The notes under the pieces are model-generated. The model ran no database searches and was not told the DNA's origin. It worked only from the letters and a program-made list of their open reading frames with translations. From the NCBI RefSeq assembly GCF_020991455.1, contig NZ_JAJMOX010000002.1, positions 434,001 through 498,000 of the forward strand: a stretch of 64,000 nucleotides of DNA, written 5' to 3'. The translations under genes and the position numbers were made by a program. How positions within the stretch are numbered: the first letter of the stretch is position 1; every line of letters begins with the position of its first letter. Below, one piece after another: positions 43,756-64,000 of the stretch. The DNA comes from Flavobacterium sp. JAS. Lineage in GTDB: Bacteria > Bacteroidota > Bacteroidia > Flavobacteriales > Flavobacteriaceae.

Positions 43756-43794
43756 AAAAGAAAACTATCAATTAACCAAACCATTAACCTAACT

Positions 43795-46968: not shown

Positions 46969-46978
46969 ATTAGAAAAA

Positions 46979-48670
46979 ATGAAAAAATTAATAATAGCTA
47001 CACTAATACTGACAACGACACTTAATTCTTGCTCCAATTATATTGAAGAAGACAATCGTTCCTACGGTTCTGCAGAGCAATACTTTTTGACTTCTGCAGG
47101 TTTTGAGTCTTTAATAAATACAAATTACGCGACATTAAAAGATATTTACGGAGGAGATCCGTGGTTGTTTGAAGCAGGAACAGATATGTATTCTGAAGGA
47201 AGAAATCAGGAACCGGAAGGACTTGCAAAATACTTGACCTTATCATCGTCATCTGCAGGAGTGGATCAATTGTACAGAACTTGTTATATCGCCATTCAGC
47301 AAGCCAATAAAGGATTGTATTATTCGACTATTACAGAGAAATCAAGTACACTCGATACCAGAATTGGAGAGCTTAAATTTTTAAGAGCAAACGCTTATTT
47401 TCTGCTGGTTCAGACTTATGGAGGAGTTCCGCTTGTTTTGGATAATATCAATACGGCAGTAACTTCATTTGACAGAAATACTGCTGAAGAAATATATACT
47501 CAGGTTTTAAAAGATCTTAACGAAGCGCTTGGGGCAGTAAGTACCGCAGCTTATACAGGCAGAGTTAATAAAAGAGCCGTTCAGGATTTATTGGCAAAAG
47601 TATATTTGACAAGAGGTTATGAAACTTTTGGAACTCCGGCTGATTTTACAACAGCTGCGGCATTGGCAGATCAGGTAATTGGCGGACAGGCATTAGCGGT
47701 GTCTTTTGATAATGTTGTAAAACCAGGGAACGAAATGAATACTGAAACGATCTTTTCAGTTCAGTTTTCGATCGCTTCAAATGCAACGGGAACTACAGCT
47801 TTAGGAAGTTCACAAAACTATTGGTTCAGTTCGTATTTAGGAGCTGCTGCGGCAGGAAATCCATATCCAAACAGAAGTTACACACTTTGTCCTACGGTTT
47901 ATGCTTTGTCATTATATGAAAAAGGAGATAAACGTTGGGAAGGAACTTTTATGAACGAAATCTACAGCAGATATTATGATTATTACGATGTAGCGGATAA
48001 AACTGCTTTGAAAATTACAGATTTCTACGAGCCAAAATGGTTTACAACAGCCGACAGAGACGCGTGGAAATTAGCCAATACTGCAAGAATGGTAAACCCT
48101 GCAACTTTCAGATACCACAATTGGGGAACTTATTCCTCAGCAGCAGCTTCAGGAGGAGATTACAACCTTATTCCGGTTCGTAAATTCGATGATCCAAAAG
48201 CTCCTTACAGTGGCGCAACAAGTGCAAATTACAATACAACACCAATAACGCCAGCCACAAACAGAAGCAGCACGCGTGATTTCATTATATCAAGACTTGG
48301 AGAAACGTATCTAATTGCTGCCGAAGCTTATTTTAAAGCAGGAAATACAGGAACTGCACTAGCACGTTTAAACGAAGTAAGAAGAAGAGCAGGAGGCGGA
48401 GTAGCAGGAACAATTCCGGTGGTAAGCTCAATTGATATCAACACTATATTAGACGAAAGAGGTAGAGAATTATTGGGCGAATACCATCGTTGGTTTGACC
48501 TAAAACGTACAGGAACATTGGTGGAGAGAACCGTTTTATACAACCCAAAGGTGACAACAGCAAATGCTTTTGCAGGAAAAGATGGTAATCTTAAAATTTT
48601 AAGACCAATACCACAATCAGCATTAGATTTGAACAGAAGTAAAAATTATCCTCAAAACCCTGCATATTAG
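46979..48670 (+). CDS. susD: SusD/RagB family surface glycan-binding lipoprotein
   Basis: A 563-residue partner of the SusC transporter. Its lipoprotein signal is ATLILTTTLNSCSNYIEE (Cys18). The TPR-like helical fold is suggested by ELKFLRANAYFLLVQTYGG, and the C-terminal part has the SusD motif YLIAAEAYFKAG, LNEVRRRAGG and ERGRELLGEYHRWFDLKR. It caps SusC and binds the pectin oligosaccharide. A strong hairpin follows the gene (48713-48743). Confidence 0.96.
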   Translation: MKKLIIATLILTTTLNSCSNYIEEDNRSYGSAEQYFLTSAGFESLINTNYATLKDIYGGDPWLFEAGTDMYSEGRNQEPEGLAKYLTLSSSSAGVDQLYRTCYIAIQQANKGLYYSTITEKSSTLDTRIGELKFLRANAYFLLVQTYGGVPLVLDNINTAVTSFDRNTAEEIYTQVLKDLNEALGAVSTAAYTGRVNKRAVQDLLAKVYLTRGYETFGTPADFTTAAALADQVIGGQALAVSFDNVVKPGNEMNTETIFSVQFSIASNATGTTALGSSQNYWFSSYLGAAAAGNPYPNRSYTLCPTVYALSLYEKGDKRWEGTFMNEIYSRYYDYYDVADKTALKITDFYEPKWFTTADRDAWKLANTARMVNPATFRYHNWGTYSSAAASGGDYNLIPVRKFDDPKAPYSGATSANYNTTPITPATNRSSTRDFIISRLGETYLIAAEAYFKAGNTGTALARLNEVRRRAGGGVAGTIPVVSSIDINTILDERGRELLGEYHRWFDLKRTGTLVERTVLYNPKVTTANAFAGKDGNLKILRPIPQSALDLNRSKNYPQNPAY

Positions 48671-48712
48671 TAATTTTAAAATTTTTGAGATTGTTTTTTT
48701 TGAAGTAGTTAA

Positions 48713-48743
48713 AAAGGAGTTTGATCGCATATCAAACTCCTTT
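48713..48743 (+). terminator. Stem-loop after susD
   Basis: AAAGGAGTTTGAT and ATCAAACTCCTTT form a perfect 13-bp stem with a 5-nt loop, followed by TTTC. As the enzyme genes downstream have no operator of their own, it may act as a partial terminator or mRNA 3'-end stabiliser that keeps susCD levels above those genes. Confidence 0.8.
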
Positions 48744-48770
48744 CTTAACTAATAATTGAAGTTTAACAGA

Positions 48771-49706
48771 ATGAATAAAATAGTATTGTTTTTGGTATTG
48801 TATGCAACGGCGATTTCTGCACAAGACAAGTTTGCGGTCGATACTTCCTATACCATAGAGAGTACTTACAATAAACTAATTAAGCAGTATCCATTTATCA
48901 CAATTGCTAAATCAGAAAAGAAGGAGAATGTTGCTGAAATTTATGATCTTGTTTATAATCAAAAGCAAAATAGAGCACTGCATTTAGATGCTTATTTTTA
49001 TAAAAAAGAAAAACTAAATCCGGCTGTAATCATGATTCATGGCGGTGGATGGCGATCAGGAAATAAAAGTCAGATGCAGGTTATGGCACAGGAAATTGCG
49101 TCAAAAGGATATTCTTGTTTTGCAATTCAATACAGCTTATCGCTTGAGGCGAAATATCCAGAGGGGATTTATGATATTAAAAATGCCATTAAATTTATAA
49201 AAGATAATGCTAAAAAACTTCATGTAGATCCAAACAAAATTGCGATTTTAGGATGCTCTTCGGGAGGTCAAATGGCAGCTTTGATTGGTACAACAAATAA
49301 AGATTTAGCTTTTGAAGATGCGCTCAATACGAGTAAATCTTCATCAAAAGTAAATGCAATTATCGATATAGATGGAATTTTAGCCTTTAAACATCCCCAG
49401 TCAAAAGAAGCAGAAATGGCGTCATTTTGGTTAAAAGGGAGTTATGAAGAAAATTCGGAGAACTGGAAAAATGCTTCGGCTCTGAGCCATACCAATAAAA
49501 ATACGCCGCCTATATTATTTATAAACAGTAGTTTTGATAGGTTTCATGCCGGAAGAGATGATATGATTACTATTTTAAATGAGAATGGAATTTATAACCA
49601 GGTAAAAACAATCGAAAACTCGCCACATTCTTTTTGGTTTTTCCAGCCTTGGTTTGATGAAATGATACAGTATACAACACAATTTTTAAACAAAATATTT
49701 AAATAA
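48771..49706 (+). CDS. Exported alpha/beta hydrolase (esterase/lipase-like)
   Basis: A 311-residue serine hydrolase beginning at ATG 48771 with a signal peptide (IVLFLVLYATAISAQ); the upstream TTG at 48756 gives five extra residues and is less likely. The oxyanion motif is MIHGGGWRSG, the nucleophile lies in ILGCSSGGQMAA, and the Asp and His are in SSFDRFHAGRDDM and ENSPHSFWF. The family contains acetyl and feruloyl esterases. In this locus it most probably removes acetyl groups from pectin; this is inference. Confidence 0.82.
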   Translation: MNKIVLFLVLYATAISAQDKFAVDTSYTIESTYNKLIKQYPFITIAKSEKKENVAEIYDLVYNQKQNRALHLDAYFYKKEKLNPAVIMIHGGGWRSGNKSQMQVMAQEIASKGYSCFAIQYSLSLEAKYPEGIYDIKNAIKFIKDNAKKLHVDPNKIAILGCSSGGQMAALIGTTNKDLAFEDALNTSKSSSKVNAIIDIDGILAFKHPQSKEAEMASFWLKGSYEENSENWKNASALSHTNKNTPPILFINSSFDRFHAGRDDMITILNENGIYNQVKTIENSPHSFWFFQPWFDEMIQYTTQFLNKIFK

Positions 49707-49715
49707 ATTTATAAA

Positions 49716-50684
49716 ATGAAAATAGTAATAACCCTATCAGCGGTATTGTTTTTTGGACTCTCAGCTTGTAAAGCACAAAATAAATACGATATTAAAACGG
49801 CTAAAACCTACGCCGAATTATCGGTAAAAACAGATGGAAAATGGGAAGGCAGAAAATACATTGGAGGAACTGTTTTTAAAAACGTTGATAAACTAAAATT
49901 GGCTCCGGAACATACAGATCATTCCTTTGATATTCGTTATGAAGGCCCGGGTTGGGAAAACAACAGAATTGGATATCGTTTGTATTTAGACTGGAGAAAT
50001 GCCATTGATATTTTCGGAAAAAAGACATCAGCAATAGTTTTACCGCAAGTTGGGCAGGATAATTTTGATTCGTATCATGAAATGAGCCATTGGGGAGCTG
50101 ATATTTTGAAAGCCGGAAAAGGAATCGGAATTGGGTCAATTGATCGTTATGTAAATAATGAAAAATTACACTTTCATCAGGTAGATTCAACTTTGGCAAA
50201 TGTCGAGAATAAAGTAAATGAATCCAGGGTAAAAGTTCGTTATTACGGATGGAAAACAGCTTCTGATAAAATTGATTTCACTACAGAATTAACCATTAAA
50301 CCGGATCAGCTTTATACAGAACATAAAATTCAGGCTTCAAAAGAAATTAAAGGAATCTGCACCGGAATTGTAAAACAAAAAAATGCAGAACTAATTAAAA
50401 AAGAAAGCAAGAATAAAAAATGGGCTTATCTGGCAACTTATGGCGAGCAGTCTTTAGTTCCGGATAAATTAGGAATGGCAATTTTTTATGAAACGAATGA
50501 AATTGAAAATGTTGCCGATACGGATTTAGATTATCTTATAGTATTTAAACCAACAACTAAAACACATTCTTTTTACTTTTTAGGCGCCTGGGAACAAGAG
50601 AAAAACGGAATTAAATCAAAAGAGGAATTTGTAAAGTACTTAGATGAAAAGCTGGAAGTACTGAACAAAAAAGGTAAAATGTAA
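49716..50684 (+). CDS. DUF4861 family protein
   Basis: A 322-residue exported protein with a signal or lipoprotein-like start (ITLSAVLFFGLSACKAQ; Cys18 might be lipidated). Central segments YEGPGWENNRIGYRLYLDWRNAIDIFGK and HEMSHWGADILKAGKGIGIGS agree with DUF4861, a family found beside GH105 and pectate lyase genes in Bacteroidota. Its role is not established. The beta-rich sequence, with several Trp and His, suits a glycan-active or glycan-binding domain. It sits 8 bp before the next coding start region, with GH105 next. Confidence 0.75.
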   Translation: MKIVITLSAVLFFGLSACKAQNKYDIKTAKTYAELSVKTDGKWEGRKYIGGTVFKNVDKLKLAPEHTDHSFDIRYEGPGWENNRIGYRLYLDWRNAIDIFGKKTSAIVLPQVGQDNFDSYHEMSHWGADILKAGKGIGIGSIDRYVNNEKLHFHQVDSTLANVENKVNESRVKVRYYGWKTASDKIDFTTELTIKPDQLYTEHKIQASKEIKGICTGIVKQKNAELIKKESKNKKWAYLATYGEQSLVPDKLGMAIFYETNEIENVADTDLDYLIVFKPTTKTHSFYFLGAWEQEKNGIKSKEEFVKYLDEKLEVLNKKGKM

Positions 50685-50697
50685 ATTTTGTTTTGCC

Positions 50698-50719
50698 ACT
50701 CTCGATAGCTATCGGGAGT
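50698..50719. repeat. 22-bp near-perfect palindrome with TCGATAG-CTATCGGGA arms
   Basis: ACTCTCGATAG and CTATCGGGAGT differ at a single pair. It lies in the short spacer between DUF4861 and the first GH105 gene. Its arms resemble the TCCCGA palindromes at 2112, 29206 and 53201. Confidence 0.6.
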
Positions 50720-50743
50720 AGCAAAAAGAAACAAATAGATCCT

Positions 50744-51946
50744 ATGCTAAAAAATCTTTCCATAAAATACACCAATTGGATAATTGTTTTGCTTCTCTTA
50801 AGCAGTAGTTTAATAATGGCTCAAAATAAACATGTCATTTCTAAAGATTTAAAGTGGTCTGAAAAAACAGCACTTTCTATTTTAAACAATTACCCAAAAG
50901 CCTGGCAAATTGATGGAAACCAAAAACCAAAATGGGATTATAAAATGGGCTTTTTATTGTTTTCTTTGGAGAAATTATATCAAAAAACAAATGAGCCAAG
51001 ATACCTGAATTACATAAAAGAGTATGCCGATGAAATGATCGACAGTTCAGGGAATATTGAGAAGTATGACCAGAAAGAATACAATATTGATTATGTAAAT
51101 CCGGGCAAAATTCTGTTTCATTTATATGATATAACAAAAGACAACCGCTATGAAAAAGTAATTGTTCAATTAAGAAAACAACTCGAGAACCAACCCAGAA
51201 CAGAGAGTGGCGGATTTTGGCACAAACAAATTTATCCCAATCAAATGTGGATTGACGGACTCTATATGGCAGAACCTTTTTATACGCAATATACTCTGAG
51301 GTATGAAAATGGAAAAAGTCTGGATGATATTGCCAAACAATTCGAATTGGTTCAGAACCATTTAGTAGACAAAAAAACAGGTTTGGTTTATCAATGTTGG
51401 GATCAAAGCAAACAAATTGCATGGGCAAATCCTAAAACGGGAACATCGCCAACAATTTGGGGACGAGGAATTGGCTGGTATATGATGGCTTTAGTAGAAA
51501 CATTAGATTATTATCCAAAATCACATCCAAAATACAAAACGTTAGTGGGTTATTTGAACCAGATCTCAAAAAGTGCAGTGCAATATAAAAGTTCTTCGGG
51601 ATTATGGTATCAAGTGGCAGATAAACCGCAATTAAAGGGAAATTATTTGGAACCTTCGGCTTCAGCCATGATTATTTATGCTTTGGCAAAAGGCAGTGAT
51701 AAAGGTTATTTAGCGTCAAATTATAAAAAAACGGCACAAAAATCATTTGATGCTTTTGTAAAAGAATTTGTGAAAGTTGGAGAAACGGGTGAAGTAAATA
51801 TTCTAAAGGTATCACCAAGTGTTGGTCTGGGAGGAAAACCTTTTAGAGATGGTACAAACGAGTATTATATTAGCGGAAAAACAAAAGATAATGGTTCGCC
51901 GGCTTTAGCGGCATTTTTACTCAGTGCGCTTGAATTAGATAAGTAG
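50744..51946 (+). CDS. Glycoside hydrolase family 105, unsaturated uronyl hydrolase (paralogue 1)
   Basis: A 400-residue exported (alpha/alpha)6-barrel enzyme. It begins at ATG 50744, which is followed by the signal peptide IIVLLLLSSSLIMAQ; 17 further upstream codons would run through a palindrome. It removes the unsaturated galacturonate end of pectin oligosaccharides made by lyases. The core motifs match GH105: FWHKQIYPNQMWIDGLYMAEPF (Asp171, likely general acid) and YQCWDQSKQIAWAN. At the site where the second paralogue has His223, this protein has Gln217. It is closely similar to the next gene, and 19 bp separate the two. Confidence 0.92.
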   Translation: MLKNLSIKYTNWIIVLLLLSSSLIMAQNKHVISKDLKWSEKTALSILNNYPKAWQIDGNQKPKWDYKMGFLLFSLEKLYQKTNEPRYLNYIKEYADEMIDSSGNIEKYDQKEYNIDYVNPGKILFHLYDITKDNRYEKVIVQLRKQLENQPRTESGGFWHKQIYPNQMWIDGLYMAEPFYTQYTLRYENGKSLDDIAKQFELVQNHLVDKKTGLVYQCWDQSKQIAWANPKTGTSPTIWGRGIGWYMMALVETLDYYPKSHPKYKTLVGYLNQISKSAVQYKSSSGLWYQVADKPQLKGNYLEPSASAMIIYALAKGSDKGYLASNYKKTAQKSFDAFVKEFVKVGETGEVNILKVSPSVGLGGKPFRDGTNEYYISGKTKDNGSPALAAFLLSALELDK

Positions 51947-51965
51947 AAATAAAAATATATTTGAA

Positions 51966-53186
51966 ATGAAAAATAATAAAAAACAAGGTTATCTAGCAGC
52001 TGTTTTACTGATCTGCGCAATGACATTTACCAGTTGTAAAGTAACTTCGCAAGAACCTGCAAAGAGCAATATTGTTATTTCTAAAGATATGAAATGGTCC
52101 GATAGAATGGCTTTAACGATCATGAAACGTCATCCTGAAGCTTATATGATCGACGATGCGAAGACACCAAAATGGGATTACGTTCATGGTTTGGTTTTGC
52201 ATTCCATTGAAGAATTGTATAAACAAAATCCAGATCCAAGATATGGGGTTTACATAAAAGGATATGTAGATTCTTTTGTTGAGAATGACGGAAGTATCAA
52301 AACGTATGATCTTGATAATTATAATATTGACATGGTGGTTTCCGGTCGTTTGCTTTTTAAGATTTACCAAACTACTAAAGAAGAAAAATACCTAAAAGCA
52401 TTACAATTGTTGCGCAAACAATTGGCTGAACAACCCAGAACAGAGAGCGGCGGATTCTGGCACAAAAAAATCTATCCGAACCAAATGTGGTTAGATGGTT
52501 TGTATATGGGAGAACCATTTTATGCCCAGTACACAACAGCTTTCGAAAACGCAAAACAATTAGACGACGTTGCAAAACAATTCGAATTGATTCAAAAACA
52601 CGCGACAGATCCAAAAACAGGATTATTGTATCACGCTTGGGATGAAAGCAAACAAATGGCCTGGGCAAATAAAGAAACCGGAACTTCGCCAAATTTCTGG
52701 TCAAGAGCGTTGGGATGGTACGTTATGGCCCTTGTGGATGTGTTGGATTATTTCCCAAAAGAGCATCCCAAACAAAAAGAACTTGTGGGATATTTGAATA
52801 GTGTTTCTGAAGCTTTGGCCAAATATCAGGATAAATCGGGTTTATGGTATCAGGTAACTGATAAAGGAAATAAGGAAGGAAATTATCTTGAAGCGTCTGG
52901 TTCATCGATGTTTGCTTATGCTTTTGCTAAAGGAGCAAACAAAGGATATTTACCTTCAAAATACAAAAAGTTAGCCAATAAAGCCTTTGAGGGTTTAACC
53001 AAAGAATTGATAAAAGTCGATGCAGATGGAGGAATTACCTTAACGCAAGCTTGCGCCGTAGCTGGTCTGGGCGGAAAACCATATCGTGATGGTTCTTATG
53101 AGTATTACGTTAAGGAAAGAAAAAAAGACAACGATCCTAAAGCAACCGGACCATTTATTTTGGCTGCTTTAGAATTGAATCGATAG
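51966..53186 (+). CDS. Glycoside hydrolase family 105, unsaturated rhamnogalacturonyl hydrolase-like (paralogue 2)
   Basis: A 406-residue lipoprotein (ALLLICAMTFTSCKVTS-like signal, lipidated Cys near residue 24). It is a close paralogue of the preceding protein, and shares its motifs FWHKKIYPNQMWLDGLYMGEPF (Asp177) and YHAWDESKQMAWAN with His223. The latter is the His expected in YteR/YesR-type rhamnogalacturonyl hydrolases, while the first paralogue has Gln as in some other unsaturated uronyl hydrolases. So the two may differ in substrate preference. It releases 4-deoxy-unsaturated galacturonate, which KduI and KduD then process. Confidence 0.92.
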   Translation: MKNNKKQGYLAAVLLICAMTFTSCKVTSQEPAKSNIVISKDMKWSDRMALTIMKRHPEAYMIDDAKTPKWDYVHGLVLHSIEELYKQNPDPRYGVYIKGYVDSFVENDGSIKTYDLDNYNIDMVVSGRLLFKIYQTTKEEKYLKALQLLRKQLAEQPRTESGGFWHKKIYPNQMWLDGLYMGEPFYAQYTTAFENAKQLDDVAKQFELIQKHATDPKTGLLYHAWDESKQMAWANKETGTSPNFWSRALGWYVMALVDVLDYFPKEHPKQKELVGYLNSVSEALAKYQDKSGLWYQVTDKGNKEGNYLEASGSSMFAYAFAKGANKGYLPSKYKKLANKAFEGLTKELIKVDADGGITLTQACAVAGLGGKPYRDGSYEYYVKERKKDNDPKATGPFILAALELNR

Positions 53187-53200
53187 AAATAGGATGTTAG

Positions 53201-53284
53201 TCCTGAAGACTCGGGATAAAACCTGTTGGGTTTAATTACCCAAAAAGTAGCCACAAAGTTTGTCATTTCGACGGAGGAGAAATC
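53201..53284. repeat. Dispersed repeat-like elements before the GH43 gene
   Basis: TCCTGAAGACTCGGGA (53201-53216) is a palindrome of the TCCCGA type; TTGGGT/ACCCAA (53226-53243) forms a short hairpin; and GTCATTTCGACGGAGGAGAAATC (53262-53284) resembles a widely scattered Flavobacteriia element. The last point is from recall and needs a genome search. Confidence 0.45.
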
Positions 53285-53324
53285 AGAGTAAAACAACCTA
53301 CTAGAAAAATAATTGTCTAAAAAA

Positions 53325-54923
53325 ATGAAAAACACAAAAGTCCTTTTCCTTTTATGGTCAGTATTTGTGATGCAAAATATTTTTGCTCAGGTTTGGGTAC
53401 CCGATAATGGAGATGGAACTTATACAAATCCTATAATTCATGCCGATTATTCGGACCCTGATGTGGTTCGGGTGGGAGATGATTTTTATATGACGGCATC
53501 GTCTTTTAATTGCATTCCGGGATTACCTATTTTGCATTCTAAAGATTTGGTGAATTGGAAGATTATAGGGTATGCACTTAGCAAACAACCGCCATTTGAA
53601 ACCTACAATAAAGTACAGCATGGAAATGGCCTTTGGGCTCCAAGTATTACTTTTCATAACAATGAATTTTACATTTATTACCCGGATCCTGACTTTGGAA
53701 TTTATAGGATAAAAGCCAAAAAAGCCCAAGGACCTTGGTCAGAACCACTTTTGGTAAAAGCCGGAGTAGGACTAATAGATCCAAGTCCGTTATGGGATGA
53801 TGATGGGAAAAATTATTTGGTTCATGCTTTTGCAGGAAGTCGGGCACAAATTAAAAGTCTCTTGGTTGTTTGCTCAATGAATGCTGATGGAACTGTTATC
53901 AATAATGATGAGGTAATGATAATTGACGGACATGAAAGTGAAGGGACTATTGAAGGACCAAAATTCTATAAACGAAATAAGTACTACTATATTTTTGCTC
54001 CTGCTGGCGGGGTTGCTACAGGATGGCAAACGGTTTTAAGATCAAAAAATGTCTTTGGTCCTTACCAAAAGAAGAAAGTTCTTGAACAGGGAAAAACAGC
54101 TATAAACGGTCCGCATCAAGGTGCCTGGGTGCAAACAAAAGCGGGTGAAGATTGGTTTATTCATTTTCAGGATAAAGGGGCTTATGGCAGAATTGTACAT
54201 CTCGAGCCTATGAAATGGGTGAATGATTGGCCAATTATGGGAGAGGATTTCGATAAAAACGCAATTGGAGAACCCGTTACAAGATTCAAAAAGCCAAATG
54301 TAGGAGGGGAATATCCAACAGAAATTCCGGCAACATCAGATGAATTTAACGAACCTAAATTAGGCATGCAATGGCAATGGCAGGCAAATTCTCAAATTAA
54401 TTGGGGATTTGTAACGAGTTTGGGATATTTGAATTTGTTTTGTTTGCCAACCATTAAGAACGATCAGAAGATATTTGATGCACCAAATTTAGTATTGCAA
54501 AAATTCCCTGCTGAAGAATTTTCCGCTACAGCCAAATTAACTTTCAATACGAGAATAAATGGCGAATCGACCGGACTTATAATCATGGGATTGGACTATA
54601 GTTATTTGTGCTTGAAGAATGAGAACGCAAAATTATATCTGAGTCAGAAAACAGGAACCTTCGATAAAAAAGTTTGGGAAACCCAGACAACACCAGTTTC
54701 GATAAAAGATAATATAATCTATCTCAGGGTAAAAGTTAAAAAAGGAGGTATTTGCAGTTTCTTTTATAGCTTAGACGATAAAAAATATCAATCTATAGGA
54801 AATGAATTTGTAGCCAAAGAAGGAAAATGGATTGGCGCTAAAGTTGGACTTTTTGCCTTGAGTGAAAAAACTACAAATGATTCTGGAAATGTTGCCGTGG
54901 ATTGGTTTAGAGTAACAAACTAG
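53325..54923 (+). CDS. Glycoside hydrolase family 43 (arabinosidase/xylosidase-like)
   Basis: A 532-residue exported five-bladed propeller enzyme with a signal peptide (VLFLLWSVFVMQNIFAQ). The start at 53325 is ATG; an in-frame TTG lies twelve bases upstream. The catalytic base is Asp44 in HADYSDPDVVRVGDDFYM, the central Asp lies near GLIDPSPLWDDDG, and the acid Glu lies in SEGTIEGPKFY. Residues ~345-532 form a GH43 C-terminal beta-sandwich domain (EFSATAKLTFN). It probably cuts arabinose or xylose side chains from pectin. Exact bond unknown. Confidence 0.9.
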   Translation: MKNTKVLFLLWSVFVMQNIFAQVWVPDNGDGTYTNPIIHADYSDPDVVRVGDDFYMTASSFNCIPGLPILHSKDLVNWKIIGYALSKQPPFETYNKVQHGNGLWAPSITFHNNEFYIYYPDPDFGIYRIKAKKAQGPWSEPLLVKAGVGLIDPSPLWDDDGKNYLVHAFAGSRAQIKSLLVVCSMNADGTVINNDEVMIIDGHESEGTIEGPKFYKRNKYYYIFAPAGGVATGWQTVLRSKNVFGPYQKKKVLEQGKTAINGPHQGAWVQTKAGEDWFIHFQDKGAYGRIVHLEPMKWVNDWPIMGEDFDKNAIGEPVTRFKKPNVGGEYPTEIPATSDEFNEPKLGMQWQWQANSQINWGFVTSLGYLNLFCLPTIKNDQKIFDAPNLVLQKFPAEEFSATAKLTFNTRINGESTGLIIMGLDYSYLCLKNENAKLYLSQKTGTFDKKVWETQTTPVSIKDNIIYLRVKVKKGGICSFFYSLDDKKYQSIGNEFVAKEGKWIGAKVGLFALSEKTTNDSGNVAVDWFRVTN

Positions 54924-55007
54924 TGAATAATAAAACAAAGTAAATTGGCAAAATGTTTTGGCACTTGGAAAAAGGAGCTAAAACATCAAGTTTAAAAACC
55001 TATTAAA

Positions 55008-57017
55008 ATGATTCGAATAAAAAAATACATATCCCTGGTTGTATTTGGCATAAGTTTTATGGCAAATGCACAGAATACCTTTAAGAATTGGCCGGATATT
55101 ATTCGTAAAAACGATGCGACCTGGTTTGCTTCGGCGCAAGCCAAAGATATTGCGGAGAATGTTTTGCTTTATCAAAGAAATATTGGAGGATGGCCAAAGA
55201 ATATCCAGATGCAAAATCCACTTAGTGATACAGAGAAACAAAAACTTATTGCTTTAAAAAGTGATTTGCATGAGATTACAACAGATAACGGTGCAACTTG
55301 TCAGGAAATGCTTTTTATGTCTAAAATGTATGCACAGGTTAAGGATCAGAGATACAGAGATTCTTTTTTAAAAGGGTTAAATTATTTGTTTGAAGCCCAA
55401 TACAAAAACGGTGGATGGCCTCAGTTTTACCCTCTTAAAAAAGGCTATTATACCCATATTACGTACAATGATGATTCGATGGTTCATATATTGAATATCA
55501 TCAAACAAGTGAGTGAAGAAACTGATTTTTACAGTATTAAACCATCGAGGGAAATTGTTGAAAAAGCCAAAAAATCTTTTGATAAAGGAATTGATTGTAT
55601 TCTAAAATCGCAATACAAACAAAATGGAGTTTTAACTGCTTGGTGTGCCCAACATGATGAGAATACTTTGGCTCCGGCCAAAGCACGAGCCTATGAATTA
55701 CCTTCGCTAAGCGGAAAAGAATCGGCTAAAATTGTTTTGCTTTTAATGTCCATCGAGAAACCTTCTGCGGAGATCATTACAGCTGTTAAAAGTGCTCAGG
55801 CTTGGTTTGAAAAAACTAAAATTACAAATCTTGAAGAGAAACGAGTTTTAAATGACCAGGGAAAAATCATTGACAAAAAAATGATTGTCACCCAGAATGC
55901 TGCGCCAATTTGGGCAAGATTTATGGAGTTAGACACCAATGAACCCTTTTTTTGCGATCGTGACGGGATAAAGGAGAAAGCACTGGAGCAGATTGGGGCA
56001 GAACGTAGAAATGGATATGCCTGGTATAGTGATGAACCAAAAGAAGTTCTTAAAAAGTATCCTGCCTGGGCCATTAAAAATGGTGTAAAAGTCTCTTTAA
56101 AAGAAACCTCGGATAAAAAAAAAGATAATTTAATAAGAGTTGCTTTAGACGGTTCGGGAGATTTTACAAAAATTCAGGATGCTATAAATGCATGTCCGTC
56201 ATTTCCGTATGAAAAAGTCACGGTTTTTATAAAAAACGGAATCTACAATGAAAAAGTTCGGATTCCCCAGTGGAACACCCATTTGGCTTTAATTGGAGAA
56301 AGTAAGGAGAATACCATTATTAGTTTTGATGATAATTTTTCAAGAATTAACTCAGGTAGAAACAGTACTTTTTTTACCTATACGATCTTAGTAGAAGGTG
56401 ATGATTTTTCGGTTTCCAATTTAACCATTAAAAATGCTTCTGGGGATAACGGTCAGGCCATTGCACTGTCTTTGGTGGCAAATCGGGCTCAGGTTCTAAA
56501 CTGTAATATTCTGGGAAATCAGGATACTTTGTACGTATCGGGAAAAGACGCAAAACAATACTTTAAAGAGTGTTATATCGAGGGTACAACCGATTTTATT
56601 TTTGGAAGTGCAACTGTTTTATTTGAAAATTGTGTGATTCACAGTCTTAAAAATTCCTATATCACAGCGGCTTCAACCCCTGAGGATACGGTCTTTGGAT
56701 TTGTTTTTAAAAATTGCAAACTCACCGCAAATCCATCAACAACTGCAGTTTATTTAGGAAGACCCTGGCGTATTTATGCAAAAACGGTCTACATCAATTG
56801 CGATATGGGAAAACATATAAGGGCTGAAGGCTGGGAAAACTGGTCGAAACCCGAAGCAGAAAAAACTGCTTTTTACGCCGAGTATAATTGCAAAGGCGAA
56901 GGTTTTCAGCCTGCAAAAAGAGTTGCTTGGTCGCATCAGCTTCAAGAGAATCAAGTAGAGAAATATACAATCGAAAACATTCTAAAAGACTCAATTGCAA
57001 ATTGGTATTCGAGGTAA
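55008..57017 (+). CDS. Bifunctional pectate lyase (PL10) - pectin methylesterase (CE8)
   Basis: A 669-residue exported fusion. After the signal peptide (ISLVVFGISFMANAQ), residues ~25-350 are a PL10 pectate lyase: NIGGWPKNIQM, ATCQEMLFMSKMY, NGGWPQFYP, YNDDSMVHIL and TAWCAQHDENTL. Residues ~372-669 are a CE8 pectin methylesterase: VALDGSGDFTKIQDAIN, GNQDTLY (Gln505 and Asp506), GTTDFIFGSA (Asp529, nucleophile) and LGRPWR (Arg585). The esterase would strip methyl groups, and the lyase then cuts the demethylated chain by beta-elimination. Covalent joining would couple the two steps. Confidence 0.94.
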   Translation: MIRIKKYISLVVFGISFMANAQNTFKNWPDIIRKNDATWFASAQAKDIAENVLLYQRNIGGWPKNIQMQNPLSDTEKQKLIALKSDLHEITTDNGATCQEMLFMSKMYAQVKDQRYRDSFLKGLNYLFEAQYKNGGWPQFYPLKKGYYTHITYNDDSMVHILNIIKQVSEETDFYSIKPSREIVEKAKKSFDKGIDCILKSQYKQNGVLTAWCAQHDENTLAPAKARAYELPSLSGKESAKIVLLLMSIEKPSAEIITAVKSAQAWFEKTKITNLEEKRVLNDQGKIIDKKMIVTQNAAPIWARFMELDTNEPFFCDRDGIKEKALEQIGAERRNGYAWYSDEPKEVLKKYPAWAIKNGVKVSLKETSDKKKDNLIRVALDGSGDFTKIQDAINACPSFPYEKVTVFIKNGIYNEKVRIPQWNTHLALIGESKENTIISFDDNFSRINSGRNSTFFTYTILVEGDDFSVSNLTIKNASGDNGQAIALSLVANRAQVLNCNILGNQDTLYVSGKDAKQYFKECYIEGTTDFIFGSATVLFENCVIHSLKNSYITAASTPEDTVFGFVFKNCKLTANPSTTAVYLGRPWRIYAKTVYINCDMGKHIRAEGWENWSKPEAEKTAFYAEYNCKGEGFQPAKRVAWSHQLQENQVEKYTIENILKDSIANWYSR

Positions 57018-57084
57018 AAAAAAGGATTCACGGATTAAAGGTGTTTAACCTGCTGAATTTTTGGGCTAAAAAATAGTAACAATT

Positions 57085-58434
57085 ATGAATTTGAAATATT
57101 TAATTTTTCTGTTGATCTCCTGTATTTCTTTTGCTCAAAATAGTGATTTTCCCTCTGCAAGAGTAGATTCGATTGTCAATAGAATTCAGCTTCCCGTCTT
57201 TGGGTCTTATCAAATTAATGTGGCTCAATTAGGTGCAAAAGGAGATTCTATTACCAATAACAAATCCTATTTTGATAAAGCAATGGCCTTGTGTAAAAGC
57301 AATAATGGCGGAACTATTATTGTACCAAAAGGGGTTTATAAAATCAAGGGCCCAATTCATTTTGTAAGTAATGTAAATCTGAGAATTGAGAAAGGGGCAA
57401 AACTTAGCTTTAGTGATAATCCCAAGGACTATCTGCCAATGGTTTTAACCAGTTGGGAAGGAACAATGCTCTATAATTATAGCCCGTTAATTTACGCTTA
57501 CAATTGTACTAATATTGCCATTACCGGCGAAGGAATTATTGATGGAGAAGGAGCTGGGACCTGGAAAGGTTTTAAAGCTAAGGAAGAGGCGGGGAAAAAC
57601 AGAAGCCGCGAAATGAATCATAATAAGATTGCTTTAAAAGACAGAAAATTTGGAGAAGGTTACTTTTTACGCCCACAAATGATTCAGTTTTTTAATTGCA
57701 GGAATATTTTGGTTGAAAATATCCGCATTGAGAATTCACCTTTTTGGTGTTTGCATTTACTCAAATCGCAAAGTATCACCGTTCGCGGAATTAGTTATAA
57801 ATCTTTAAATTATAACAATGACGGTATTGATCCCGAGTATGCAAAAGACGTTTTAATCGAGAATGTAACCTTTGATAATGGCGATGATAATGTGGCAATT
57901 AAGGCAGGAAGAGATCATGAAGGAAGAGCAAATTCGGCTACACCAAGTGAGCATATAGTAATTAGAAATTGTAATTTCAAAGGACTACATGGCGTTGTTA
58001 TCGGAAGCGAAATGTCAGCGGGAGTTCAGAATGTTTATGTAGAGAATTGCAAAACAGTTGGCTATTTAAAAAGAGGAATCTATCTAAAGACCAATGCCGA
58101 CAGAGGAGGTTTTATTAAAAATGTTTTTGTTCGAAATATAAAACTCGATACGGTAGAGGATTGTTTATATATCACGGCAAATTATCACGGTGAAGGAAAT
58201 GGCTTTCAATCGGACATATCAAATATTCATTTTTCGAATATCACCTGTAATCAAGCCACAGAATCCGCAATTGTAATTCAAGGTTTTCAAGACAAGAAAA
58301 TTCGCAATATCACCTTTAATAATATTGAAATTAAATCGGCAAAAAATGCCATTTCAAATCAAAATGCAGAGAATGTTTTAATGACAGATGTTTTTATCGG
58401 AGAAAAAGCAACAGTGCCCACAGCGGCGAAATAA
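57085..58434 (+). CDS. Glycoside hydrolase family 28 (second copy)
   Basis: A 449-residue exported beta-helix protein (signal LKYLIFLLISCISFAQ). It has YNNDGIDPEY and the Asp pair in NGDDNVAIKAGRD. In place of the GHG and RIK motifs of the first copy, it shows KGLHGVVIGSEMS and GIYLKTN. The His lies one residue later, and the Arg-Ile-Lys has become Tyr-Leu-Lys. It therefore probably has different substrate or activity, such as unsaturated or rhamnogalacturonan ends. The other flanks, such as NRSREMNHNKIALKDRKFGEGYFLRPQ, match the exo-polygalacturonase branch. Confidence 0.9.
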   Translation: MNLKYLIFLLISCISFAQNSDFPSARVDSIVNRIQLPVFGSYQINVAQLGAKGDSITNNKSYFDKAMALCKSNNGGTIIVPKGVYKIKGPIHFVSNVNLRIEKGAKLSFSDNPKDYLPMVLTSWEGTMLYNYSPLIYAYNCTNIAITGEGIIDGEGAGTWKGFKAKEEAGKNRSREMNHNKIALKDRKFGEGYFLRPQMIQFFNCRNILVENIRIENSPFWCLHLLKSQSITVRGISYKSLNYNNDGIDPEYAKDVLIENVTFDNGDDNVAIKAGRDHEGRANSATPSEHIVIRNCNFKGLHGVVIGSEMSAGVQNVYVENCKTVGYLKRGIYLKTNADRGGFIKNVFVRNIKLDTVEDCLYITANYHGEGNGFQSDISNIHFSNITCNQATESAIVIQGFQDKKIRNITFNNIEIKSAKNAISNQNAENVLMTDVFIGEKATVPTAAK

Positions 58435-58595
58435 TTTTTTTTTCAGGTTTAAAGCTGTAAAAGGTTTTACCCAGAAGGCACAGCACTGTGTCTATTGCAG
58501 GGACAAAGCAATCTGAGAAAGTAATTCGAGATATCAGGAACAAAAAAATAGAAAATAAAAACAGTGTAAGGAGTTTAAAGATCTAAAATAATAAA

Positions 58596-59339
58596 ATGAA
58601 ACACTATGTATTAATCCTCTTCTTAATCAGCGCAAGCTGTTTTGCTCAAAACCCTACAATATATACCATTGGAGACTCAACAATGGCGAACAAAAAGGAT
58701 CCCGAGCGCAATCCTGAGCATGGTTGGGCACAGGTACTTGGGTCATTTTTTAAAGAAAATATTACCCTTGAGAATAAGGCCGTAAATGGGCGAAGTACCA
58801 AAAGTTTCATCAATGAGAAACGTTGGGATTCCATTTATAAAAAGCTAAAAAAAGGAGATTATGTTTTTATTGAATTTGGGCATAATGATGAGAAAATCGA
58901 AGATTCAACCCGTTATACAAATCCACATACAGCATATCGTTACAATTTGATTCGGTTTGTAAAAGAAACCAGGGCAAAAGGCGCGACACCAATATTATTG
59001 AGCTCTATAGCCAGACGTAATTTTAATGAAAAAGGCGTTTTGGTACCAACCCATGGAGATTATCCTCTTGAAACCCGATTAGTAGCACAAGAGTATAAAG
59101 TGGCTTTTATCGATCTGGAATATTTTACAGAATTGCTCGAGGAATCTTATGGGCCCGAGAAATCAAAACAACTGCATTTGCACTTTAAAGCTGGTGAGAA
59201 TAGTTATTATGAGAAAGACAAGGCAGATGACACACACCTTTCTTTAAAAGGAGCCACAGCAATTGCGCAGATTGTAATCAATCAAATAAAACTCTTAGAG
59301 GATCCTTTATTTGAAAGGCTTAAAAAGGGGATTAAATAG
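58596..59339 (+). CDS. Rhamnogalacturonan acetylesterase (CE12, SGNH hydrolase)
   Basis: A 247-residue exported esterase with a signal peptide (YVLILFLISASCFAQ). The SGNH blocks are present: GDSTMANK (Ser28), a Gly in NKAVNGRSTKSF, EFGHNDEK, and DDTHLSLKG with Asp and His. CE12 enzymes release acetate from rhamnogalacturonan I, which opens the backbone to GH105 and others. It is the last gene of the polysaccharide locus, and its stop lies only 9 bp from the end of the opposing relaxase gene. Confidence 0.93.
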   Translation: MKHYVLILFLISASCFAQNPTIYTIGDSTMANKKDPERNPEHGWAQVLGSFFKENITLENKAVNGRSTKSFINEKRWDSIYKKLKKGDYVFIEFGHNDEKIEDSTRYTNPHTAYRYNLIRFVKETRAKGATPILLSSIARRNFNEKGVLVPTHGDYPLETRLVAQEYKVAFIDLEYFTELLEESYGPEKSKQLHLHFKAGENSYYEKDKADDTHLSLKGATAIAQIVINQIKLLEDPLFERLKKGIK

Positions 59340-59348
59340 AAAAAAAAC

Positions 59349-60443
59349 TTAAGGGATATGAATTTTTAAGAGTTTGTTTTTTTTATTCTCACCAGCAGGT
59401 CTTAATTGCTTATCATTGAGAAGAGCCAAATTGTATGGAGTATTTAACGAGTTGTCACTGATTATATTTTTTGTTTTATGATCGATATAGATAATCTGGG
59501 CAGTATCACCTGGGGAGTTTTTTTGTGTAACTACTGTGATGCCTTGTTTGTTGAGCTTTGCCTTTAAGTGGTTTAACGATAATGATTTGAGTTGGGATAT
59601 TTCCACCATTTTTTTCAGATGTATTTTCTCTTCTATGTTCTTTAAGGCATTGGCTTTGAATTTGTTTTCCAAAAAAGACAAAGTAGGTTTGTTCTCTATA
59701 AGACTTGCCTTGATGGGTTTGCCAATTGGTTTGCCTTGTTTATCGAGAATTTTATAGAGTAAGCCCCTGGATAGAAATACCTTTGAATTCTCCATGCCTC
59801 GATCTGCCATAACATTGTATTGGCCTAAGATTGCATTGAGCTGGGAAAAATTGGTATAATTGTATTGTGCGAGAATATAATTCACAACATTGCTTATGGC
59901 CTTTTTAGATTCCATTTTCCCATAATGTACTTTTTCAATATGGATGGGCTGGAGATAGGATTCTTCTTTTTTTATTGATTCTGCCCTGATTAGCCCAAAT
60001 GTTTTCTCAATTTCTTTTCTAGCGGGTTCTGATTTGTTGATGCCAATATTAAACAGATTGATACAGCTGCCGGTTTTCTCAATAGTGGTGGTAATCAGAT
60101 GCAGGTGTTGGTGGCCAGCATCATAATGCTGGTATATTAAATAGGGTTGATTTCCAAAGCCTATTTTTTGCATATAAATGTGGGCAATTGTAATGAGTTT
60201 TTCTTTGGGGTGATTCTCCAATGGCGAGAAATTTATGGAAATATGAACCGTATTGCGTTTGGCGAGTTCATTTAATTGCGCCCGCTTGGCAAAGCGTTTA
60301 AATTTGATGGTAAAACTTATTTTATCTAGATCCACAGGAAAGTTGCCTGCTGCTATACATTGGGCAGAACCTATTTTAACTTTATTTTCATTATAGGCAA
60401 GTGTTTGACCTATTGTGGCATTAGTTTTTATGATTGTGACCAT
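59349..60443 (-). CDS. mobB: Mobilization relaxase (MobB-like)
   Basis: A 364-residue HUH endonuclease of the relaxase type used by Bacteroidota mobilizable elements. The candidate nucleophile Tyr17 lies in QTLAYNENKV, and the metal-binding His cluster in HYDAGHQHLHLITTTIEK. The C-terminal half has coiled-coil-like stretches (KNIEEKIHLKKMVEISQLK). It should nick the oriT and pilot the strand into the recipient. Its start overlaps the mobA-like gene by 16 bp. Ends 9 bp from the acetylesterase gene. Confidence 0.88.
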   Translation of the reverse strand: MVTIIKTNATIGQTLAYNENKVKIGSAQCIAAGNFPVDLDKISFTIKFKRFAKRAQLNELAKRNTVHISINFSPLENHPKEKLITIAHIYMQKIGFGNQPYLIYQHYDAGHQHLHLITTTIEKTGSCINLFNIGINKSEPARKEIEKTFGLIRAESIKKEESYLQPIHIEKVHYGKMESKKAISNVVNYILAQYNYTNFSQLNAILGQYNVMADRGMENSKVFLSRGLLYKILDKQGKPIGKPIKASLIENKPTLSFLENKFKANALKNIEEKIHLKKMVEISQLKSLSLNHLKAKLNKQGITVVTQKNSPGDTAQIIYIDHKTKNIISDNSLNTPYNLALLNDKQLRPAGENKKNKLLKIHIP

Positions 60444-60844
60444 TGGTGTGTAATTTTTTCAATTTGTTTTTTAGTTTCTCCTATGATTTTGCACAGCTGA
60501 TTGATCTGTAATTCTAAAGTCTCTAACGATGGGGTTAAGGGATCGATTTGCTCTTGCAAAGAGAGTTTATCTAAGAGCTCAACGAGGCTATCTCGGACAC
60601 TGTTGATCTGATTGTTTAAAGGGACTATTTCTTCAATTAAATCCTCCAAAGACTGGTTTCTATAAATAATTGTAACGGGTTTACCCAATAGGAGCTTTCG
60701 AAGATATTCACTAAGACTATGGCAGGTGCTAGTTTTGTACTTGCGCTCTATTGTGTAATATTCGCCGTAGGTTAATCCCAGATAGACTGACCTGATTTTA
60801 GTCAAGTTATGGACATCTATTATTTTATGGTCACACTTAGGCAT
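60428..60844 (-). CDS. mobA: Relaxosome accessory protein (MobA/MbpA-like)
   Basis: A 138-residue small basic protein. The YYTIERKYKTSTCHSLSEYLRKLLLGKPVT segment is like the ribbon-helix-helix/accessory region of mobilization proteins (spanning residues ~27-56), and the second half is a likely coiled coil (LEDLIEEIVPLNNQINSVRD-like heptads). It would bind the transfer origin and assist the relaxase, whose start it overlaps by 16 bp. No name is certain; symbol is by gene order. Confidence 0.72.
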   Translation of the reverse strand: MPKCDHKIIDVHNLTKIRSVYLGLTYGEYYTIERKYKTSTCHSLSEYLRKLLLGKPVTIIYRNQSLEDLIEEIVPLNNQINSVRDSLVELLDKLSLQEQIDPLTPSLETLELQINQLCKIIGETKKQIEKITHQWSQS

Positions 60845-60979
60845 TTGTTTGATTTTAATACTAATTTAGAGATTTCTGTTTTTCTAGAAAATCATGCGCA
60901 TATTTTTACTGTTAAGTCATTTAAGAAAGAGCAACGGGTATTCAAGAAAACCAAAGTGATTTTAGCCCCTGGTTTTCTA
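60845..60979. other. 135-bp spacer in the mobilization cluster
   Basis: Separates the coupling protein gene from the mobA-like gene. No clear gene is seen on the minus strand. It may hold an oriT or a promoter, as relaxosome genes often lie beside it, but I identify no diagnostic inverted repeat. Confidence 0.35.
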
Positions 60980-62962
60980 TTATTTTCGTATGATCAGATA
61001 AGAGAGTTCGGGATCATTTGTAAGACGATTGATTTCCGAATAAATGATATCTTGAATGTCTTGTCTTATTTGCAGATAATTATTTTGCACCATTGTAGGA
61101 TCAAGTTTGCGCACTATGGGAATGGCACTGTAATTATCAGTTTCTCTTTCAAGGGCGGTATGATCATTTAGAATCTCACAATGGAAAGCCTTAAGTTCAA
61201 TTCTACAATTGGGATCATCAGCGATCAAACCAACGAATTCTCCTGAACTTAAAGAAGAAATTTTCGAAGCAGGAACCGCCAGTTCGAGTTGTTTGGAACG
61301 ACTAATGGAGATATCGGAGCTATTTATTGAAATATTTTCCCTGTTCTGCATAATCTTGCCAAAGCGCTCGGATAATTGTTTGGCAGTATCACCGGTAACT
61401 TGCCCGCTGATGATGTTTCCTGTTATGTTCATAATTACATCTGCCTGTTCACGCCCATAGTCTTTTCTTAGTTGGCTAAAGTCTTGTAGTCCCAAGCAAG
61501 TTGCTACTTTATTGCTTCTGGCTGTGGCAATAAGACTATCGATATTATTGAGATATAGGGTAGGGAATTCATCAAAAACAAGGCTGCTTTTTTGTTTGCC
61601 TTTTTGGTTTACCAATTTAAGCAGACGGTTGACATAGAGCGATAATACAGCGCCGTAAATTTGTATTTTTTGCGGATTATTTCCCATACAGATTATTTTA
61701 GGCTCTTGAGTATTATTAATATCCAGGGTAAAATCATTTCCTGATAATACATAGTAGAGCTGGGGAGAAGAAAGCCTTGCCATGGCTACTTTTGCAGAGG
61801 CAATTTGCCCTTCGAGTTGCTCCATGACATCGTTGAGGTAGGCATTAATAAAGGGATTAATGAGTACCTGAATTTCTTTTTCTGTTCGAAGTAAGGTAAA
61901 GAGATCGTCGTAGTCTACCTGCATGAGTTCAATAACATGGGGAAGGGTGCAAAATTGCCCCTGTTTATATTTTCGGAGGTACCAGATAATGGCTGTTAAA
62001 AAATTAATGGGTGATTCTACAAAAAAATCTCCCTGTCTTTTGATCCATTCTCTATTGAGCCCGAGTAAAATTGTTCTGGCTGATTCGGCAGAATCTGTAA
62101 TATCGATCATGGCTGAAGGCACTAAAGGATTGCAGCGATGTGAACGCGAGAGATCATCAAAGTTAATGCTAAAGAATTTAGGAGGGACCGCATAAGAGGA
62201 TTTACACTCGAGCCATGTGTTGTAAGCAATGGTGGTGAGGTCATCGAATTTGAAATCGTAAACAAACATGGCAAAACCTTTTTTTATGTGCTGGGTTATA
62301 ACATGGCGTATTACAAAATACGATTTACCCGAACCAGGAGTGCCTAGTACCATAAGGGCCCGAAATGGATTTATGATATTGATCCAGCTCTTTCGAATCT
62401 TATCCTTTAGATAGTATTGGGTGGGAAGGTTGATCGAGTATTCGTTTTCAATGAGTCTTTCTTCTTGGGGAAAGGTTTCGTTTTCTTTATTGAAGATATC
62501 ATCGGAGTTTATTCTCTTGGTTATTATGCGCGATAGTAATGTTCCCCCTGTTAGTATTGACAGATATCCAATTAGTGTTAGTGAGATATAGCAGAAGGTA
62601 ATGTAAGGGGAGGCTATTGTTAGATAAAATAAAAAACTACTGCTAAAGAAGACAAAGAGTCCAATGCATATATAGGAGAGGGCGGTTTTATAGTTGAGTT
62701 TTTCATTTTTTCTTCCTTTTACCCCCAAGAGCGAGATCAATAAAAAAACTAGAGAGAGGAGTTTGGATCGGTGAAAATGGGTAAAAAGACCCGTATGCTC
62801 AATATTGGCCAAGATCAGATTGCCAAATGTATTTGCAAGGCCCCATTGCAAGAAAGCCCCATAGGTGTAATAATAAAAATGGATCAACAGCACAAGGATA
62901 CTAATGAGTCTTGTCAGGTCAAGTATTTTTCGAAGTGCTTGTTCGTTCTCTCCGGTTTGCAT
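60980..62962 (-). CDS. mobC: VirD4/TraG-type conjugal coupling protein (MobC-like)
   Basis: A 660-residue inner-membrane ATPase. Hydrophobic helices at residues ~18-40, ~68-82, ~100-118 and ~125-150 are followed by Walker A in LGTPGSGKSYFVIR (residues 207-214) and Walker B in SLVFDEFPTLYL. It pumps the relaxase-bound strand to the type IV secretion channel. In Bacteroidota such proteins are called MobC or TraG. The secretion channel genes are not in the window, so the element could be mobilizable rather than self-transferring, or the remainder may lie beyond 64 kb. Confidence 0.9.
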   Translation of the reverse strand: MQTGENEQALRKILDLTRLISILVLLIHFYYYTYGAFLQWGLANTFGNLILANIEHTGLFTHFHRSKLLSLVFLLISLLGVKGRKNEKLNYKTALSYICIGLFVFFSSSFLFYLTIASPYITFCYISLTLIGYLSILTGGTLLSRIITKRINSDDIFNKENETFPQEERLIENEYSINLPTQYYLKDKIRKSWINIINPFRALMVLGTPGSGKSYFVIRHVITQHIKKGFAMFVYDFKFDDLTTIAYNTWLECKSSYAVPPKFFSINFDDLSRSHRCNPLVPSAMIDITDSAESARTILLGLNREWIKRQGDFFVESPINFLTAIIWYLRKYKQGQFCTLPHVIELMQVDYDDLFTLLRTEKEIQVLINPFINAYLNDVMEQLEGQIASAKVAMARLSSPQLYYVLSGNDFTLDINNTQEPKIICMGNNPQKIQIYGAVLSLYVNRLLKLVNQKGKQKSSLVFDEFPTLYLNNIDSLIATARSNKVATCLGLQDFSQLRKDYGREQADVIMNITGNIISGQVTGDTAKQLSERFGKIMQNRENISINSSDISISRSKQLELAVPASKISSLSSGEFVGLIADDPNCRIELKAFHCEILNDHTALERETDNYSAIPIVRKLDPTMVQNNYLQIRQDIQDIIYSEINRLTNDPELSYLIIRK

Positions 62963-63055
62963 GATGATGATCCTTAAGTGTTAATAGACTATAAAAAGAC
63001 TGCCGATTTGATGTACAATAAATTACAGACAAAGCGCTAAGAAGCGTTTTTTTTG

Positions 63056-63964
63056 CTAGAGTCTTGGCCTGTTTTTTATTTTTTTTAATTGGAGCTTCCC
63101 CTGGTTTACTACCCAAAGATTAAGGTCTTTATGGCCTTTGTATAAAAGGCTTTCATCTTTGTATTTCCTATCCCAACTTAAGGCGCGCTTCGTGGCGGTT
63201 TGTCCGGGCTGATCCCGATCGAGAAACAATCGGATTAATTGGTGTTTTTCCATGAACAAACGCGCTTTGTCTATAAAGGAAAGCGAATTGAGAATGATAA
63301 AATCCTGCTTTTTTGAAGCAGGGCTCCAATTGAGGGCCTTAAAGGATAAAAAGTCAAAAAAACCTTCAAAAACCAAAACTTCTTTAGCCTTAGAGTCATA
63401 ACTGGTGAAGCCTTTGGGAGAAGCGCTGGCCTTGAAGTAGCGATTTCTGATTTCAAATCCTCCTAAATCATTTTTAAACCCAATACCGTAATAGGTATGA
63501 TCATTTAGCCTATAATGGACCTCTTTGCAAAATTCAGCGGCAATTTCAAGAGGGATTTTTCGCTCTTCAAGGTATTTTAAAAGGGCATGAGATTGCAGTG
63601 GTATCTCGCGGAGAATTACCAGTTTTGAAGATTTGGATTCCAGCTGATTTTCGATGGGGAAAACCCGCGGGGGGCTCATCGCTAGAGCACCGGTGTAATT
63701 TTTGAGGAATTCGCCAAAGGAACATTGGAAAAAGAGCATTCCAAAATCAATTAGATTACCACCTCTTCCCATACCATGGTCGTACCACCTATTGATGCTG
63801 CGGTTGATTTTAAAAGACGCGGTATTTTCATTTCGCAAGGGAGAAAGATACCAATAATCCTCGCGCGATACTCTAGAGGGTTCAAATCCTAAGGAGGAAA
63901 GATAACAAACCATATCTATTGTCTTTATCTGGTCTATCGAAAGACTCTCGTTGCTGAAATTCAT
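63056..63964 (-). CDS. Toprim/primase-like protein with degenerate zinc finger
   Basis: A 302-residue protein. The first ~95 residues align with the CHC2 zinc finger of DNA primases (SPLRNENTASFKI, then HGMGRGGNLIDFGML), but the Cys/His zinc ligands have been replaced. A Toprim domain follows with VLVFEGFFDFLSF (Glu) and FLDRDQPGQTA (Asp-x-Asp), consistent with metal-dependent nucleotidyl transfer. It resembles primase-like proteins that convert transferred single strands on Bacteroidota mobile elements. Only 36 bp upstream are visible. It lies first in the gene order of the mobilization module. Confidence 0.83.
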   Translation of the reverse strand: MNFSNESLSIDQIKTIDMVCYLSSLGFEPSRVSREDYWYLSPLRNENTASFKINRSINRWYDHGMGRGGNLIDFGMLFFQCSFGEFLKNYTGALAMSPPRVFPIENQLESKSSKLVILREIPLQSHALLKYLEERKIPLEIAAEFCKEVHYRLNDHTYYGIGFKNDLGGFEIRNRYFKASASPKGFTSYDSKAKEVLVFEGFFDFLSFKALNWSPASKKQDFIILNSLSFIDKARLFMEKHQLIRLFLDRDQPGQTATKRALSWDRKYKDESLLYKGHKDLNLWVVNQGKLQLKKIKNRPRL

Positions 63965-64000
63965 TGTCCTATTGTATCAAGTTCATCATTCAGGTTCAGA

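Follow-up and report, generated by a model that had tools for sequence, protein, structure and literature searches.

The window, by which we mean the whole stretch of 64,000 nucleotides analyzed here, carries at its right-hand side the meeting point of a pectin locus on the plus strand and four mobilization genes on the minus strand (operon span 63964-59349). A gap of 9 bp separates the convergent stop codons of an SGNH/GDSL gene, the last of the pectin locus, and of a relaxase gene. The genome containing the window is designated G000 where several genomes are compared. The features of the region are as follows:

9862-42028, no strand assigned: left chromosomal neighbors of the pectin locus, in an order largely kept in seven relatives as far as these were fetched (least in G183, to 29685)
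42316-59339, plus strand: pectin locus proper, with genes for a GH28, TonB receptor, SusD, esterase, two GH88, GH43, pectate lyase-pectinesterase, GH28 and SGNH protein (Pfam)
58596-59339, plus strand: SGNH/GDSL esterase gene, 247 aa, final gene of the pectin locus (PF13472, 4.3e-16)
59340-59348, no strand: gap between the two convergent stops (ORF list and sequence)
59349-60443, minus strand: relaxase of the MobB type, 364 aa, lacking the basic C-terminal tail of its relatives, Y17 and HxDxxHxH kept (PF03432, 2.4e-25; alignments)
60428-60844, minus strand: MobA, NikA-like accessory protein, 138 aa (PF21983, 1.1e-6)
60845-60979, minus strand: mobC-mobA spacer, at the mobA side, where other modules have the hairpin element R1 (see below); no R1, and unconserved among the four modules compared
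60980-62962, minus strand: MobC coupling protein of the VirD4/TraG type, 660 aa, Walker A kept (NCBIfam NF041326, 1162.7 bits, cut-off 900)
63056-63964, minus strand: primase-like protein with Toprim and zinc-ribbon domains, 302 aa, Toprim motifs retained (PF13155, Toprim_2; PF01807, DnaG zinc ribbon)

The relaxase, accessory and coupling proteins all have Pfam matches of the Bacteroidota MobABC families; MobC scores above its NCBIfam cut-off and MobB below its own (NF041325, 207.5 bits, cut-off 400). In such systems MobA and MobB bind and nick the origin, MobC passes the strand to a type IV system and the primase primes the complement. We take Y17 and H-x-D-x-x-H-x-H to be the catalytic residues of this MobB class of relaxases. 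The position of mobC is unusual for the family: It lies upstream of mobA, not downstream of mobB.

An earlier note on this DNA had described a four-gene minus-strand mobilization module that ends 9 bp from the final pectin gene with no clear terminator between them, and both parts of this description are borne out, the first by the open reading frames and domain searches and the second by a terminator scan, which found none in the gap; the nearest lies at 59495-59514, within the relaxase gene (three terminator-like sites in all vs. 1.9 in shuffles). Following the assembly past 64 kb, as that note proposed, yielded 646 bp more: The contig stops at 498646 within a 16S rRNA gene, and the break is an rRNA operon, not a demonstrated element end. 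The four module genes are the only ones separating the pectin locus from the rRNA operon, and no integrase or recombinase is found among the genes from 59349 up to the rRNA gene where the contig ends. No tRNA that could serve as an attachment site was detected in the window, in the contig tail or in the joined stretches of seven relatives. A search for direct repeats (57000-64000) returned only short, imperfect repeats or repeat families, with the assembly ending in rRNA on the far side.

Distribution of the Junction in Flavobacterium

The same convergent neighbors are found in three further genomes (G278, G337, and G374). Assembly artefact or chance was rejected as the source of the junction, which recurs in four genomes. 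Judged from coordinates, the gap between relaxase and SGNH genes measures 100 bp in G278, 92 bp in G337, 13 bp in G374 and 9 bp in the window, so that the tightness of the junction is not conserved among them.

Pectin genes are common in the genus, with an SGNH relative at E ≤ 1e-80 encoded in 122 of 398 genomes. For the analysis of the right flank we took, from these 122 matches, 71 of the 72 with at least 77% identity covering at least 245 residues, leaving out G099, a partial match in G311 and all weaker ones. The module adjoins the SGNH gene in four of the 71 genomes, namely the window genome and the three named above. A search with the module proteins (E up to 1) of the first 8 kb of flank in the other 67 gave no more than two matches, both at chance level (E 0.78 and 0.41). 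It should be noted that three flanks are shorter than 1.5 kb (G162, 206 bp; G249, 566 bp; G063, 1085 bp) and that G162 hence says little; in G249 the first 242 bp of flank, which contain no mob gene, lead into an rRNA leader.

An rRNA leader also lies beyond the primase gene in the window genome and in G337, where it is followed by an 11-N gap and a 5S gene; in G278 and G374 the searched stretches past the primase gene yielded no rRNA. The leaders of the two former genomes (L008:1154-1468 and L090:14724-15037) are 83% identical, and in most genomes examined the right flank of the pectin locus is a different one; rearrangements at this place may have been mediated by rRNA operons.

Searching 398 genomes, we recognized no copy of the window-type module away from the pectin locus among the matches listed, and the closest plasmid relative of the relaxase (112 records) reaches 29.8% identity among the matches listed. 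Two relatives of the relaxase were recovered in the search of genome contigs, both from Flavobacterium and both in modules of standard gene order.

Seven relatives were read in long stretches, the shortest of about 27 kb (G183) and the longest of 49 kb (G374 and G103). In all of them the pectin locus and its left neighbors keep their order apart from minor gains and losses, and on the right-hand side, past the SGNH gene, the order varies among them. Three of the seven carry the module (G278, G337, and G374) and four do not (G103, G121, G114, and G183); locus and module are thus not present or absent together. This comparison, of the kind that the earlier note called for, gave the outcome named there as a refutation: The pectin locus occurs in an unchanged setting in relatives that lack the mobile module. 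Within the pectin locus of G121, a Flavo-1 RNA (RF01705, 50.1 bits) is predicted between a GH88 and a GH43 gene (L038:3571-3662). As a separate observation, eight genomes encode a standard mobC on the contig that also carries the pectin locus, at a distance of about 140-335 kb (G121:C2, G103:C1, G088:C35, G108:C4, G049:C16, G083:C31, G006:C9, and G091:C6), which may mark a second conserved chromosomal place for mob modules.

Module Lineage and a Candidate Origin of Transfer

Among the 35 loci listed, standard modules have mobA followed by mobB, often with a primase gene ahead; mobC comes directly after mobB in seven and farther downstream in one. The order primase-mobC-mobA-mobB is found in only three of these loci, all beside the pectin locus, and in the window, which thus departs from the standard mobA-mobB-(mobC). 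The four modules form one clade for MobC (100/99) and the primase (100/99), and also for MobB (SH-aLRT 97, in a quick tree with rows below 250 bits dropped and a long-branch warning attached). The basic C-terminal tail is missing from all four MobBs, which are 364-368 aa long compared with a median of 424 aa (range 286-444; 67 entries, duplicates included) for other MobBs. The four MobCs are 76-80% identical to one another, the primases 58-63% and the MobBs 43-55%. Three of the MobAs are 39-51% identical, leaving out that of G337, which is split over two frames; this broken gene suggests decay in that genome. All four carriers encode a TraG-type gene elsewhere in the genome.

Genes other than mob genes also recur beside standard modules. 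In L030:9262-15250 the module is accompanied by SusC/SusD-like genes and by genes for an S9 peptidase (about 880 aa), a DUF6520 protein (about 90 aa) and a protein with a MauE domain (about 500 aa). A set of similar gene sizes stands beside many standard modules (L033, L041, L044, L089, L091, L095, L099, and L100); the Pfam assignments cover L030 and, for the MauE protein, L044. The set may be recurrent cargo or mark a common insertion place.

Standard Flavobacterium modules possess a nested-stem element of 92-97 bp upstream of mobA, which we designate R1 (e.g., L043:11209-11301, L033:9413-9508, and L030:15996-16090, with 25 further distinct copies). Across the 28 distinct sequences, 3 of 19 pairs have changed on both sides with pairing kept, and an Rfam search of four R1 loci matched no family. 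From its position and symmetry R1 is probably the origin of transfer (oriT), though it may instead be a DNA or RNA element of another kind. A covariance model built from the 28 training rows locates R1 at 76 of 77 relaxase rows, 406-471 bp upstream of the relaxase in question, these rows being the relaxase matches listed that fall in 199 genomes (counted by hand, the 76 positives comprise 19 training rows and 57 others); the sole miss is the window relaxase. In total, 45 of the 199 genus genomes encode an R1.

Neither the window module (59000-64000, filters off, best 9.7 bits) nor the surroundings of the modules in G278, G337, and G374 (best 10.7 bits) gave an R1 match above noise. Elsewhere in the window genome R1 occurs at three places (C4, C11, and C65; 95-102 bits, all three being training rows), and G374 has one on another contig; none was found anywhere in G278 and G337 at E 0.001. 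A new hairpin common to the spacers of the four modules was rejected, as the alignment shows none conserved. About 60 bp upstream of the primase gene are alike among the four modules, and standard primases share these bp. A diverged oriT at the window module could be missed by the R1 model. The suggestion of the earlier note that the tight junction marks an element end or a deletion holds in part: The module is incomplete and rearranged, with the relaxase tail missing, mobC moved and the oriT-like element absent.

The Y17 and H-x-D-x-x-H-x-H residues are retained in all four MobBs, as are Walker A in MobC and the Toprim motifs in the primase in the module copies compared. Between carriers, pS is 0.70-0.80 and pN 0.11-0.16 for MobC, 0.61-0.78 and 0.20-0.25 for the primase, and 0.73-0.83 and 0.27-0.36 for MobB. 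For the same pairs, pS of the GH43, PL-CE8, GH28, and SGNH genes is 0.58-0.81; the mob genes average somewhat above GH43, PL-CE8, and GH28. The module is thus about as diverged as its pectin neighbors, in what is a weak test because all pS values are near saturation.

The kept motifs together with pN below pS argue for retained activity of the encoded proteins. It is conceivable, but on balance doubtful, that the module is a dead, not yet deleted piece of an old mobilizable element with no present function. The loss of the relaxase tail and the oriT-like element, with four genes left, the broken MobA frame in G337 and the absence of the module from the flanks of 67 of 71 relatives would all fit such decay; however, apart from that one MobA the reading frames are open in all four genomes despite near-saturated synonymous sites, pN is well below pS and the catalytic residues are kept in all copies.

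Origin of the Module and Relation to Known Systems

Carriers of the module are scattered on an rpoB tree of 30 genomes, in which a single carrier clade is rejected (AU p 2.6e-6); it is likewise rejected by the concatenated pectin genes (11 genomes, AU p 1.4e-8) and the backbone genes (8 genomes, 2.9e-16), and is not rejected by the SGNH tree alone (71 genomes, AU p 0.525). The pectin and backbone trees place the window genome with G121 and G103, G278 and G337 near G114, and G374 with G183. Within the module, the unrooted quartet pairs G000 with G374 and G278 with G337 (MobC 96/89, primase 95/93), as does the host quartet, a match expected by chance one time in three. We favor one ancestral arrival followed by many losses over repeated arrival at one place.

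We consider it likely that what we see in the four genes is a derived form of the Flavobacterium MobABC relaxase module residing in the chromosome, and that the pectin locus is not their cargo; the best reading of the module is that it is old, vertically inherited and often lost. This is consistent with the junction in four species, the single module lineage and a pectin locus that holds its place whether the module is there or not. Against it, only 4 of 71 genomes carry the module, so that vertical descent needs many losses, and the somewhat higher pS of the mob genes also fits separate arrival of already diverged copies.

Such separate arrival, in which an unsampled element family with the window gene order inserts repeatedly between the SGNH gene and its right neighbor, appears unlikely to us. 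It would account for the scattered carriers, for mob genes as diverged as, or somewhat more than, the neighboring genes, and for the variable right flank of the SGNH gene in the genomes examined, but no copy was recognized elsewhere in the 398 genomes and no plasmid relative above 29.8% identity was seen, among the matches listed in either case; moreover, no integrase stands beside the module, and its quartet equals that of the hosts. Very improbable, in our view, is a domesticated relaxase operon, selected after loss of its oriT to nick another chromosomal site and driving, with a type IV system borrowed from resident conjugative elements, Hfr-like transfer of the neighboring chromosome including the pectin locus. 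Least credible of all is a composite mobile element, an integrative and mobilizable element (IME) or an ICE, that would carry the module and the pectin locus jointly, a question raised by the earlier note: Adjacency in four genomes would fit, but we reject it on synteny and trees, with the same left neighbors of the pectin locus in genomes that lack the module, no module beside the SGNH gene in 67 of 71 genomes (among them G162 with its 206-bp flank) and a single carrier clade rejected by pectin and backbone genes.

Returning to the resident, vertically inherited module, an ancestor would have had it flanked by the pectin locus and an rRNA operon; there it would have lost its origin in cis, and with it the capacity to move itself, before being passed on vertically and lost in most lineages. 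Because the origin-like element of the family is missing, the present module is probably unable to move itself in cis. The genes would form a relaxosome-type operon, with MobA and MobB binding and nicking DNA, MobC coupling the strand to a type IV system provided by a resident conjugative element, and the primase priming the second strand. We lean, by a narrow margin, towards an operon that is kept under selection with no origin of its own, acting on a diverged, unrecognized site or in trans. Action on R1 elsewhere in the genome would be possible in G000 and G374 and is unlikely in G278 and G337, because no R1 was found there.

No title retrieved in a literature search deals with this locus, although it may still have been described in print. 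The closest known system is the MobA-MobB-MobC module of the Bacteroidota (NF041325, NF041326), widespread in Flavobacterium, which has the same families and catalytic motifs; the window module differs in its gene order, in a short MobB that falls under the NCBIfam cut-off and in lacking R1. Like IMEs, on which there is a review (PMC5704250), it combines relaxase, accessory and coupling genes without an adjacent type IV system. It differs in its fixed place in four species and in that no integrase (among the genes from 59349 to the contig end), attachment site or recognizable oriT was seen in the assembled sequence. In the same genome, the conjugative element on C11 encodes homologous MobA, MobB (45% identity), and MobC (74%) proteins, but has a TraG at 1-2340, the order mobA-mobB-mobC and an R1 at 37996-38090. 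Mobility genes beside a polysaccharide locus are, by this comparison, not in themselves evidence of co-transfer. The window module seems to be a natural case of a relaxase operon outliving its origin of transfer with the catalytic residues kept, and the sister modules that have the origin-like element offer a built-in control with which selection on such operons becomes testable.
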